Source: Deuterostichococcus epilithicus
Lineage: Eukaryota; Chlorophyta; Trebouxiophyceae; Prasiolales; Stichococcaceae
DNA length: 64,000 nucleotides
Direction: 5' to 3'
Assembly: GCA_033439295.1 (NCBI GenBank)
Contig: JAVTLE010000023.1
Location: 806,001-870,000, forward strand
Below the pieces are notes generated by a model. It made no database searches. It was not told the DNA's origin and saw only the letters and a program-made list of their open reading frames with translations. Positions 29,007-61,500 of this stretch are shown here, piece by piece; position 1 is the first letter of the stretch; every line of letters starts with the position of its first letter. Both the position numbers and the translations under genes were made by a program.

Positions 29007-32000
29007 CTATCTCCGCGCCTTCTTGCTGCCGCCACCGCCGCTGCCGCCGCCGCCCTTGCGCTTGCGCTTCCTGTCCTCCTCGTCGTCCGACTCCTCGCGC
29101 TGTCGGTCGTCCCTGGCGCAAATCGACATGAAAATGTTCGAGCGTCGTCGGACAGGGACATCGAAAAGCCCGCAGGCGACTGCAGTGACCAGGGGAGGCG
29201 GCGCGCCGGCTGCAACAATTGCAGCAATTGCATCGGCACCGGTGCACAGATTGCCGAAGGGCATACTTGTCAACCCATAACTCACTGTGCAGCCTGCTCC
29301 TCCAGCTGGTCCCAGTCCAGCCCCTCCTCTTCCTCGTCCAGGCTGGCGTCGCTGCCGTCGTCTTCATCGGACTCCACCAGCGACTCGTCGTCCGAGGACG
29401 CCTCCTCCTCTGACGACTCCTCTGACGCTTCCGACGGCGCAAACTCCTCGTCGCCCTCCTCCTCTGTGGGGCAGGGTGCCTTGAATTACTCTGTGATTGT
29501 TGTGGTTGCTGGTTGTTGCAGGTGCCGTCGCAGCAGTGACTTTCTAGCGCCTGCAAAGGTGCGAGCTCCTCGTCGCTCCCCCCTCCTCTGCGGGGCTCAA
29601 GCATAGTAGCAGTAACATGGTCGTCCTGCTACCGCCGCTGCCACCGCCACAGCCGCCGCCGCTGCCGCCGCCAGCGCAGGCGACGGCATCACCCAGAAGG
29701 CTTACCTCCCACGACCCTTGAGAGCAGGTCAAATTCTGCGCCGCAGCCATCCGGCTCGCCAGCCGCTTTGACTGCTGTCGCTACTGCTGTCATCGCCAAT
29801 ATGCAACCCAGAGAAGCCGGCCACCACTCTGAGATGCATGTCGTGCACTGTCATCCTCGCATTCCCCATTGGAGCCCGCCACTGAGTTCAAACATCCCAC
29901 CCGCCGTCGGCAGTGCGAGCTATCAAAAGATGTAAGGTGGCATTACGATGGCTGCGCCAACCGCAGCTGCTTACCATCGGCCTCGCCCTGCTCCTCGGAG
30001 CCCGCCTCCGCATCCAGAAACACCCGACCACCATTCGCAAAGCATCAACCTTGTCAGTGATGAAGGAGTTTGAACAAGGTTTGACTCGGAGCGCACCGTC
30101 GTCTTCGCCCTCCTCCTCGGAGCCCGCCTCCGAATCCAGGAAGTCCCAACCCCCTTCAGCAGCGCATTGCCTTGTCAGTGGAAGAAGGAGTTGGATAAGC
30201 TTTGAATTGGAGCGCACCATCGTCTTCGCCCTCCTCCTCGGAGCCCGCCTCCGCATCCAGGAAGTCCCACCCACCGTCGGCGATGAAGCCCTCAGGGTCT
30301 TCCAGTATGGACTTGAGGATGGGCTTCCAGTTGAGGTTGATCTTGTTCTCGTAGAACTTGATGTCCATGGACTGCAGCCACTCGCGCACGTTGTCGAGGC
30401 TCGTCGCGGGCACCGCGTCGATGCGCAGCACGTCCCGCGTCAGGTCCTATGAACCGCATATGAAAGAAGTCATGATACACACAACCGGTGTACGACAGTC
30501 TAATCCAAGCACCGCGTCGATGCGCAGCACGTCCCACGTCAGGTCCTGTGAACCGCATATGAAAGAAGTCATGATACACACAACCGGTGTACGACAGTCT
30601 AATCCAAGCGCCGCCCATAGGACACCAGCATGCTCTTGGAGTTAACAGTTAAAGGCCTTGAAGAGGGGCCCCTTGAGGGCAACGGGCATGTCGAAGTTGC
30701 GCAGGTCGAAGCCGAGAAATACAGCCACTTGACTCCCGAATGTAAAGGGTTGCCAGAAGTGGCACCGACACCGAGCGCACCTTGAAGACGATGGTCATGT
30801 CGAAGTTGCGCAGGTTGAAGCCGACGCGCTCCAGGTTGACCAGCAGGATGCCGGGGCAGGTAATCACCGTGAACGGCATCTCGATCAGCTCCACCTGCAG
30901 GGGGCGGTAAGACCTATATAAGTCTGGAATGATGACTTACAAACAGGCAGGATGTCCTTTTACAACGGACATTAGTCGGGGGTGACTCCGACATCGCAGC
31001 TGCCGCATCCCGCAGACTGCTGGGGACGACATGGAGCGCAGACGCCCGGGGCTCATCAGGCTGTGGGATGCGCTGCAGCAAAGCAGCCGGGGGTGCGTAG
31101 TGCTGCACAGGGGGCTGAGAACCCTACACTTAAACCCAGCGCACCAGGCAGTTGACGGTGGGCATGACGAAGGCTGTCGAGCGGTGCGGCACACCATTAA
31201 AGCCCAGCTCCCGGAACGGAATTTCAAACTCCATCTCCAGATCCCTGCAATTGCACGCCCGCGTCGTCATAGTAACACGCTGCAGCAGCACCGGCGATGT
31301 TGGTTTGAGACAAGGCAGAAAAAATGTGATGGGAACGCCCGGAAATGGGTGCGCACCCAAAGTCGCGCTCCCAGATGTCCGTCTGCACCCGTTTGACGAA
31401 CTGCTGGAACTGCCTGTTGATCTGCGTGCGTGAACAGGCGGGGCAACACCTCAGCCCTGAGGTACTTGGCTGGTTGCAGTAGAGGAACTCTGTACGGTCC
31501 GTGCAAAGTGGCGCTCGCATCAGGGAGCTGGGCCCGCCATGGGCGACCCCTGAGTCCGATGCCACCCCAAAGCAACCTCATCGCAGGCTCCAGAGGTTGC
31601 AGAAAGGTCATTGTAGACTCCAGATGCTGCATGAGATACACTCAGCGGCACCTTGTTGCGGACGTCGCGCTCCTTCTGCTCCTCGTCGATCTCGTCCGGG
31701 TCGTACGCTGAGCGCCGCCCCGTGTCCAGCGTCTGCACCGAGTCCATGACCTGCGGAAATGCAAGACACAGCCACAGTCAGCCTCGAGGCCCCCCGTGTG
31801 CAACGTCCGCACCGAGCGAGCGACTTGCGGCAAGGCAAAGAGGGACGGGGTTCAGAGACCTGCCGAGGAGCGCTGATCCCTGGACCACGGATGTTTGCGA
31901 GCAGTCAAACGTCCAAAGGCACGGCGCGATCAGACAGCACCAGCCTGGTGTCACGAGGCCGGCGCGGGCGCGCGCCTCGGTGTAGAACTGGATGTCGACG

Positions 32001-58573: not shown

Positions 58574-61500
58574 CTACTGCTTGTCGCCGCCAGAGCTGGG
58601 AGGCGGCTGACTGCCGGGCGGCGTTGCCGCCGTGCCACGGCCTCTGCCGCGGCCGCCACGACCCGCGGCCCGGCCGCCGCGCCCACCTGCTGCAAAAGGC
58701 ACATACAGCTTCGCTAAGGAGGCAGACTTCCTTCTATCTTTTTGTGATCTTTGACATCGATCCTCCAAGCAAGGAAGGACGGCTGCGTCACGATGATGTA
58801 AGATGGCGAATGTGAGGGCCGTCGTCACACGCGTGTCCCAGCACACATCGCGGCACTGCACAGGACCATGCCAAGGAATCGCCCTCACCTGCGGGCGTCG
58901 CCGGCGACGCCTGCGGCGAGCCGACCGCCGCGGCCAGCTCCCTGTGGAGCAGCGCGCCGCCGGGACCAGCGCGCCCGCCCACCACGGGGCGCCGCGCCGC
59001 CGGCGGTGCTGTCGCCGCCGGTGNGCCGCCGCCGCCGGCACTGGCCGCTGCCGCCTGGCCGGACTTTGCCGCAACCGCCTTAGGCTGGAAGATGATCTTC
59101 TCCGGCCGCCGCTTGCGCGGCTGCTGCCGCGGCGACGGCTGCGCGGCGCGAGCCGCACCGGCTGGCTGCTGCTCGCGTCGGCAGCTGCCGGCGCCTCTGC
59201 CGGCTGACTGGACGCCGCGGGGGCGGTGGAGCTCGCCGGCGACACTGCGCTGACAGAGGGCTGCGGCGGCTGTGCCGCCGGCGCCGCCCCCTGCTTGGCC
59301 TCCGCCTGGCTGGCAGCCTGTGCCGGCTGCTGCTGTTCCTGCTGCTGCTCTGGCTGTCCGGTGCCCGCTGTCGGCGTTGCTGCCGCTTCTGGTGGCGCCG
59401 CCTCTGCAGGCTGCTGGGCCTCCGCCGCCTGCGCCACGGCGCCCGCGTCTGCCGCCGCCTCCGCACCGGCCATGCTGGCGTCCGCAGCATCTGCGGCGCT
59501 GCCATCCTCGCCGACGTCTCCCTCCTCTTCTAGGTCCAGCAGCTCCTCGTCCTCGCCGCCGCCACCGTCGCCGCCGTCGCCTTCCAGCTCGGGCTGCTCG
59601 TCGAGCCAGTCCTCCTCCCCGTCACCGTCGTCCTGTCCGAGGTGTGGACCCACACTGAGCCACTGCCTCACGTTTCACGGGACTGTTGTTCAGCACCTTT
59701 TGCCGCAATTGCCTCCAGCTAGGGCTGCTCGTCGAATCAGTCCTCCTCATCTCTATCGTCCTGTTCATCTTTCAACACCTCAGTCACAATGGTGGCTTGA
59801 TTCAGGAAGGTCAGTGACAGATGTTGCTGCCTTCTAACTAGGGCTGCCCGTCCAGCCGTGCCGCCTCTCCGTCGCTGCGCTGTCAGGAATTCTAAATGCC
59901 TTTGGCGATGCAATTGACTCCGCTGACCAGGGCCATGTCACAGACTGACAGGCCAGCTACAATTGCATCCGCTGGCCATCACGCTCACGCACAAGGTCGC
60001 CAATGCAGCCGGGCAAGACTTCAGCCCTTCGAATACTGACACGAGCAACCAGATTGCGCTACCGAACTCTCCTGCTGCTTTAGTATATCTCGAGGGCATT
60101 GCCGCCCGCAGGCGGAGCTCATCACATCGCGGCCTCCGGCATTTCTCAGATGCAGCTGTCACCTGCATGTCGGCTGCTGGCGACATCGCGCCGCTCGGAG
60201 GCTCAGCCCTCTCGGCCGCATCTGCTGCCCCCGCCGCCGCCGTCGCCGCCGCCGCTGCGCTGGTCGGCTCGGGCGCCAGTGCGGCCGCCGCCGGAGAGGT
60301 ACCGCCCGTCTCAGCCGCCGGCAGGCTGACCGGTGGCATCTCGGCCGGCTCGGCCACCTCGGCAGGTGCCTCCGCGGCTCCAGTGGTCTCAGCCTCAGGC
60401 TCGGCTGCAGGCTCCTCGGCAGCGGCATCAGCGAGCGCCTCCTGTGCCGCCTCCTCCATGCCGTCTGCCTCCTCTGCGCAGCACGGAGCGCCAGAACATG
60501 ATGGGATAGGCGGCACTCACTTGCCTTGCGCCGACTGCCATCGTTGCACGTCAGCTCAGCCATGCAACCTCCGCCTGGAGACCTGCAGAACTGGTGGCCT
60601 GTGGCGCTGGGATCAACGCCGGAAAACCAGGGGTCGGACCCTGGGGAGCCAGAAACCGTCTGTGGGCCAGCTGACGGCATGGGTCGCATGTCCCTGCAGG
60701 AGCTCAAACCCGCAAGCATGCCCAGACCAGCAAGCGGCTGCCCCTTTCCTCGAGGGCACCCCGAGAGCACGAGCCTCTCCTCAATGGGCTCCAAGATATA
60801 AACCCTATACTCTCAACCCTAAATCCAAACCTTCATATTTGCCGTCCTCTCCAGCCTCCGCACCGGCCTCCTCGCCGGCTTCCCCCTCCTCCATCTCGAC
60901 TTCGCCATCCTCCGCGACGTCTGCACAGCATCGAGCTCTGCTAAGGAATGGAAGGAAGGACTTGGGAGGAGGGAGGAGGAAGCAAGGGAGGGAAGGGAGG
61001 AGGGAGTGGAAGAAAGGATTGTTTCCAGTGCCTTGTGGAGCAATCGTGCACTGCCGGCATGCAAGGCCTACGCATAGGCCTACTTCAACCGTGCTGGGTC
61101 TTCGGTGACCCTGACTGTGTTTCATCATGACTTCTCGGCACCCCAACACCCTTGGGAGTGCAACAGCACACCTGTGTCCCCGCCGTCTTCGGCCTCCTCG
61201 GCTTCCTGGGGCGCCTCACCCTCCTCCTCAGGGTTTAGAGCGCCCTCCTCAGGGTTTAGCGCGCCTTCCTCGCCTTCCTCCATGTCCAAGTCGCCGCCTG
61301 CACAAGGGGGTTCAGTGGAGCAGTGAGATCAAAGCTCGACATGTGAGTGCAGGGTGTGTGTGGCGCACATCCATCCGCATGGTGTCAGCTGCAATGCTCT
61401 GGGCCACACTCGTGGTTCAAGAGTTGGCACGATACAGGACTCCACAAACAACGCAGAAACTTCCCACACCACGCCGGCATGAGTGCAGTCCGCACCTGCG

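Follow-up and report, generated by a model that had tools for sequence, protein, structure and literature searches.

The window analysed here is a 64,000-bp stretch of Deuterostichococcus epilithicus DNA (contig JAVTLE010000023.1, positions 806,001 to 870,000), in which introns of neighbouring genes carry partial copies of the edges of the adjoining exons. Gene models were built with a small gene finder and then corrected manually using Protein Data Bank alignments, giving a curated set of 79 introns in nine genes with a median length of 202 bp. SPT16 (E = 9.1e-145, the alignment ending before the last exons), KRR1 (E = 9.5e-104) and RRF (E = 8.4e-24) were matched in the Protein Data Bank, and Pfam identified the AAA (CDC48-like), BI-1, GTP cyclohydrolase I, WW-domain and RRF genes. 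'NUA-like' is the unconfirmed label given to a further gene by the sequence-only reading, an earlier note made from the letters of this DNA. The boundaries of two of the 79 curated introns, the acceptor of RRF intron 49980-50260 and the donor of KRR1 intron 53748-54062, are off by a base or two.

The first or last 100 bp of each exon was aligned to its own intron, with the introns of other genes as the control. A score of at least 20 was obtained at 16 of 158 own edges against 0.25 expected; when two alanine-rich low-complexity genes were excluded in a stricter count, 14 of 144 edges reached this score against 0.11 expected from 8,172 mismatched exon-intron pairs. The match in intron 59100-59158 (offset 45) was dropped from the 16 as low complexity, and the retained 15 edges lie in 13 introns, eight of them in SPT16 and one each in the CDC48-like, RRF, KRR1, NUA-like and GTP cyclohydrolase I genes. 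In a rank test performed intron by intron, whose floor is about p = 0.014-0.015, all of the 15 edges but one reached p ≤ 0.015; the one that did not is an acceptor-side copy in a 754-bp intron (p = 0.055). At p ≤ 0.02, 7 of 79 donor edges and 11 of 79 acceptor edges were found against 1.6 expected each, and some of these score below 20 (e.g. BI-1 25155-25433 and GTP cyclohydrolase I 19803-19986). The BI-1 edge (score 13, p = 0.014) stands at the floor of the test and was not counted. The median length of introns with copies was 355 bp (n = 14, including the dropped low-complexity intron) versus 189 bp for those without (n = 65; p = 8e-5). This comparison favours the result because long introns give matches more room; the rank test, which controls for intron length intron by intron, agrees for 14 of the 15 edges.

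Comparisons of the window with itself gave the same picture. Self-blastn of the whole window (E ≤ 1e-4) yielded 16 pairs, nine of which were direct repeats less than 1 kb apart, all within 29.9-59.8 kb, with offsets of 243 (two steps), 122, 99, 109, 120, 320, 110, 111 and 132 bp; the remaining seven comprised a large repeat at 0-18 kb and one inverted pair. Ungapped self-matches in 18-64 kb with scores of at least 18 at offsets of 75-134 bp numbered 20 against ca. 1.1 expected from offsets of 2,000-3,500 bp. Offsets of 15-74 bp were likewise above expectation (27), chiefly because of low-complexity exons and short repeats of 16-30 bp. Slight excesses were also seen in a few later offset bins. 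Among gapped self-matches with scores of at least 24, 13 fell in the 70-139 bp band versus 6 across 24 far-offset control bands; eight of the 13 lie at exon edges and five in low-complexity regions. The exon-edge copies in these introns are real and exceed chance. They are as follows, together with two weaker candidates (offsets in bp).

29845..30281, minus strand: SPT16 exon 30218-30446, 3' end with its donor present in three additional copies at approximately 30095-30160, 29973-30032 and 29845-29890; edge score 52
29539..29596, minus strand: SPT16 exon 29286-29463, 5' start repeated together with its acceptor; offset 124, edge score 20, intron-specific p = 0.055
30410..30614, minus strand: youngest duplication, running across the acceptor of SPT16 exon 30218-30446; 99-bp unit present twice with two differences, edge score 35
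30668..30715, minus strand: SPT16 exon 30781-30894, 3' end repeated without a surviving pseudo-donor; offset 109, edge score 32
31792..31838, minus strand: SPT16 exon 31652-31750, start repeated; offset 74, edge score 21
32151..32221, minus strand: copy of the start of SPT16 exon 31941-32099; offset 120, indels relative to the exon, edge score 51
33181..33241 (approximate), minus strand: SPT16 exon 33301-33432, 3' end repeated; offset 120, edge score 25
35139..35418, minus strand: SPT16 exon 34923-35083, start repeated within a 665-bp intron; offset 320 (edge score 35) and, weaker, offsets 83 and 195
36876..36925, minus strand: copy of the start of SPT16 exon 36490-36629; offset 305, edge score 28
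38098..38155, minus strand: SPT16 exon 37936-38026, start repeated together with its acceptor; offset 126, edge score 20
42601..42660, plus strand: copy of the start of CDC48-like exon 42707-42869; offset 89-92, edge score 21
50412..50562, minus strand: two copies of the start of RRF exon 50261-50344; offsets 106 and 217, edge score 23
54535..54594, plus strand: KRR1 exon 54650-54804, first 56 bp repeated together with the acceptor; offset 111, 86% identical, edge score 40
59702..59880 (end approximate), minus strand: two copies of the start of NUA-like exon 59159-59632; offsets 131 and 250, edge score 35
20228..20287, minus strand: GTP cyclohydrolase I exon 20372-20488, 3' end repeated; offset 134/135, edge score 24
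53513..53580, plus strand: weak candidate for the acceptor region of KRR1 exon 53636; offset 81, score 13, p = 0.17, not above chance
63437..63470, minus strand: candidate for the acceptor and start of a coiled-coil gene exon (ca. 63254-63362); offset 103, intron outside the curated set

The donor array of SPT16 exon 30218-30446 advances by steps of 121, 122 and 126 bp within the 754-bp intron 29464-30217 and preserves GT in all three copies; the copy at 29539..29596 shares this intron. Copies occur in 8 of 25 SPT16 introns versus 5 of 53 elsewhere (low-complexity intron dropped; p = 0.02 for a comparison chosen post hoc), and a hot spot in SPT16 is not claimed, the comparison having been picked after the data were seen. 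The sequence-only reading had reported copies in at least twelve introns of five genes, and twelve were recovered there (eight in SPT16 and one each in the CDC48-like, RRF, KRR1 and NUA-like genes). It had proposed aligning introns with their flanking exons against a control, and this alignment, carried out within the window against mismatched pairs, gave the excess described above. Most of the offsets it named were reproduced within a few bases; the match at 92 bp in intron 39231-39452 does no better than chance (score 10, p = 0.51). Its statement that GTP cyclohydrolase and BI-1 lack copies fails for the former, which has one at 20228-20287, and holds for the latter, whose borderline edge was not counted. 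Its suggestion of intron growth agrees with the greater length of the introns that carry copies.

The best offsets at the 15 edges were 126, 305, 320, 120, 120, 74, 109, 99, 121, 124, 89, 217, 111, 134 and 131 bp, 12 of which lie within 74-135 bp, bearing out the near-uniform lengths noticed earlier. The copies at offsets 217 and 320 are taken as two and three steps, respectively, because intermediates exist (106 for the former, the weaker 83 and 195 for the latter), and larger offsets would generally represent several steps. When offsets were read as steps (23 values, some from weak candidates), they ranged from 74 to 135 bp with a mean of 110 bp and a standard deviation of 17 bp; nine of the 23 were multiples of three, showing no frame bias. 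In a survey of 18-58.5 kb in which overlapping matches were merged, offsets of 31-73 bp were left only within one repetitive exon; a 71-bp offset match at 36762-36818 (score 17) was apparently swallowed by a 24-bp repeat on merging. Tandem repeats of 16-30 bp outside curated exons (36804-36860, 37152-37203, 43084-43141, 28126-28181 and 31571-31631) are a size class apart from the 75-135 bp duplications. A weak 102-bp offset match was also seen within one SPT16 exon (39078-39127 / 39180-39229); it may be an ancient in-frame duplication or a coincidence.

The start of the downstream exon was copied at 11 of the 15 edges and the end of the upstream exon at four; an acceptor bias is not claimed (p = 0.12). 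Of 13 acceptor-side copies, 7 still have AG at precisely the matching position, and 3 of 6 donor-side copies still have GT there. Homology extends past the splice site and into intron sequence at 30446 (97% of 69 columns), at 30218 (79% of 102 columns, reaching the next copy) and at 50344 in RRF (73% of 74 columns, the offset-106 copy retaining acceptor and intronic flank), with shorter stretches elsewhere, as expected of contiguous DNA duplication. At the youngest junction, GCGGCGC before the first unit and GCGGTGC at the unit end match at six of seven positions, which points, in this one case, to putative microhomology at the origin of the 99-bp duplication. The neighbouring exon edge was sought beside the copy in 22 events, and the best score was 7 over 25 shifts, with no control; no copy was seen joined to the neighbouring exon, and they thus give no sign of an origin from spliced messenger RNA (mRNA).

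Mismatches between exon edge and copy ranged from 3% to ca. 30%. Over 20 aligned events, exon-copy differences at codon positions 1, 2 and 3 numbered 65/352, 50/353 and 83/352 (18, 14 and 24%), and there were 44 indel columns, with at least one in 15 of the 20 copies; both counts omit the weaker copies (53636, 39230 and a pair at 35083). Coding constraint no longer acts on the decaying copies, whereas the exon retains its protein sequence. Tandem (mutually exclusive) exon duplication, in which an entire exon with an open frame and both splice sites is doubled, was rejected, the copies being partial and 15 of 20 having indel columns. In KRR1 the copy is an 11-residue insertion relative to yeast Krr1, and the flanking exons align straight through. 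The wide spread of ages and the tandem duplication of segments spanning splice sites, both proposed in the sequence-only reading, were thus recovered. That the copies 'usually' span the splice site was too strong a wording, about half doing so, and its notion of intron shifting finds no support in the KRR1 alignment.

Short tandem duplications of DNA (ca. 75-135 bp, mean 110 bp) across exon-intron borders have probably lengthened introns repeatedly in this window. A duplication of this kind would leave two consecutive sets of exon edge, splice site and intron flank. Splicing would continue at the outer, original site, probably by exon definition, leaving the protein unchanged, and such duplications would be tolerated because this site remains in use. 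The intron would gain one unit length per event, the inner exon copy, freed of constraint, would decay, and further rounds would give arrays with ca. 120-bp steps. Candidate causes, considered from the one junction young enough to read, are microhomology-mediated template switching or the fill-in of staggered nicks or breaks. The unconstrained decay of the copies and the KRR1 insertion relative to yeast are read as intron growth, and the best explanation is that the process is growth, not gain, of introns, a variant of the tandem genomic duplication mechanism.

Several observations weigh against this explanation. No purely intronic duplications in the 75-135 bp band were found outside the arrays, whereas they should, by estimate, be about as common, many being too decayed to see; their absence may reflect signal loss or a real preference for splice junctions. 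Homology halts at or near the splice site at 59632, 30781, 54650 and 32099, where the exon part is 76-86% alike. In a simple decay simulation with small indels, the intronic similarity of 15 events was too low (combined p = 2.6e-5). With longer indels, drawn from the spectrum of lipase paralogues in the window, p was 0.004-0.03; the loss of the intronic half is nearly as neutral decay predicts with this spectrum, and the deficit vanishes only when introns are taken to evolve 1.5 times faster. The idea that exon sequence alone is copied was dropped on the basis of this fall in significance. The 305-bp copy lacks resolved intermediate steps. The near bands from 140 to 489 bp also exceed the gapped control (4, 4, 4, 4 and 6 matches with scores of at least 24), their sources being low-complexity or exon-exon matches and multi-step copies. 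Finally, simulations with five generic length distributions and similar detection placed 22-44% of detected events within 74-135 bp, under which the observed 12 of 15 has p = 3e-6 to 0.005. Generic lengths fail to give the band, so a length-limiting step is missing from the explanation.

The narrow band is not explained by detection alone. A tentative extension, which we regard as possible but doubtful, is that a length-restricted duplication (110 ± 17 bp) repeatedly hits exon-intron borders in this lineage and ratchets intron length up genome-wide, its unit size being set by DNA repair, replication or exon-positioned nucleosomes, perhaps with a preference for splice junctions. Units of 31-73 bp are almost absent, and no single step longer than 135 bp is proven.

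Gain of introns or exons by tandem duplication, with the copies included in the mRNA, is improbable. Intron gain by this mechanism has been described before, and an in vivo demonstration is cited in its favour (PMC3443670, PMC4974935); moreover, the gene finder joined copies as in-frame mini-exons, including 30097-30153, 30513-30545 and 54539-54571. However, the anatomy of intron gain is lacking because the copies, in units of 74-135 bp, sit inside introns of 190-754 bp. The three new introns would measure 64, 66 and 78 bp, below all other curated introns, whose lengths start at 93 bp save one of 59 bp in a low-complexity gene, and the indel columns in 15 of 20 copies and the KRR1 insertion relative to yeast also speak against inclusion.

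It is likewise quite improbable that exon copies are kept or refreshed, as alternative exons, as decoy splice sites or by gene conversion from the exon, so that homology ends at the splice site. The low intronic similarity of some events under the simple decay model and the survival of splice dinucleotides (7 of 13 on the acceptor side, 3 of 6 on the donor side) would fit such preservation. The codon-position pattern, in contrast, fits a decaying copy, the dinucleotide retention is about what 70-87% identity would leave by estimate, and the intronic deficit shrinks with longer indels. Chance, low complexity or an assembly artefact is very improbable: the alanine- and glycine-rich exons of the genes at 55-63 kb do yield spurious offsets, but the 14 edges outside the two alanine-rich genes compare with 0.11 expected, and the copies differ so widely in age that a single assembly error cannot account for them. 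Capture of exon edges by a mobile element or an introner-like family is hardly credible, for although near-uniform length and recurrence in neighbouring genes recall such elements, the strong copies match their own adjoining exon, and whole-window self-blastn (E ≤ 1e-4) showed no element common to different introns.

Other features of the window were as follows. Positions 1-18010 hold three copies of a unit of ca. 7.5-8 kb that are 75-87% identical, the third incomplete; an open reading frame at 4188-4541 (minus strand) matches the Pfam class-3 lipase family (E = 3.3e-7), and the region is possibly a tandem array of lipase genes. At 0-18 kb, no self-matches scored 13 or more at offsets of 35-214 bp, and alignment of the paralogues showed four insertions of at least 25 bp without a convincing tandem copy, a 300-bp one scoring 18 versus a shuffle maximum of 15. 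This absence says little, because only ca. 0.65 visible events are expected there by a rough estimate. A weak (65%) inverted repeat of ca. 430 bp lies at 46507-46933, between the CDC48-like gene and the next gene. The small WW-domain gene at 47547-48930 (Pfam E = 1e-6; exon joins set by hand) encodes a predicted product whose start looks like a signal peptide and whose middle stretch looks like a membrane segment. In the gene models, four of the 79 curated introns have a GC instead of a GT donor (38620-39069, 37692-37935, 42117-42325 and 57429-57652). Rfam and tRNA scans gave no matches, and segments of KRR1 (121 residues) and SPT16 (142 residues) found no relatives in bacterial, archaeal and viral sequence collections.

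The pattern is real and somewhat unusual, notably in its tight lengths and in how many introns it affects, and is best explained by a familiar type of mutation with a less familiar consequence and a length preference left over. Intron growth is usually ascribed to transposons and small insertions. If the process described here is genome-wide, introns would grow in discrete steps of ca. 110 bp by tandem duplication across splice sites. Each step would be dated by its decaying exon copy, because the constrained exon acts as a reference, and the rate of intron growth would become directly measurable, as would the rule that keeps the spliceosome on the original site when two near-identical sites lie ca. 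110 bp apart. The narrow length band would imply a specific mutational mechanism.

The tandem genomic duplication model of intron gain reportedly goes back to Rogers (1989), Gao and Lynch (2009) and Hellsten et al. (2011). As described in the texts cited here, a duplicated AGGT gives rise to a new intron of unit length (PMC3443670, PMC4974935). The present copies resemble this model in being short direct tandem duplications within genes that duplicate splice signals, and differ in that the unit straddles a splice site that was already there and adds length to a pre-existing intron. The potato RdRp gene (Ma et al. 2016, PMC4974935) is, in that account, a single gene in which duplication gave a new intron and extra exon sequence, and it also has an 83-bp tandem duplication inside an intron. 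Its unit spans an intron-exon border, as here, with the branch site and acceptor duplicated, whereas the present duplications affect existing introns in several genes. In Drosophila, some novel intron positions are attributed to tandem duplication or sliding (PMC2891723); there too, local duplication near splice sites is a source of altered gene structure. The Drosophila cases concern new intron positions, whereas the KRR1 exon join looks unchanged. Fill-in by Pol alpha-primase at breaks with 3' overhangs produces small tandem duplications, which are given as the commonest short (<100 bp) insertions in the human genome (PMC8355091). This is a comparable mutational source of short tandem duplications, described there without a tie to splice sites or to a 75-135 bp band. 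Among the titles and abstract openings listed by searches of open-access papers, none reported repeated splice-site-spanning duplications that lengthen introns. What is distinctive here is that existing introns were lengthened, many times and in neighbouring genes, by steps of similar size.

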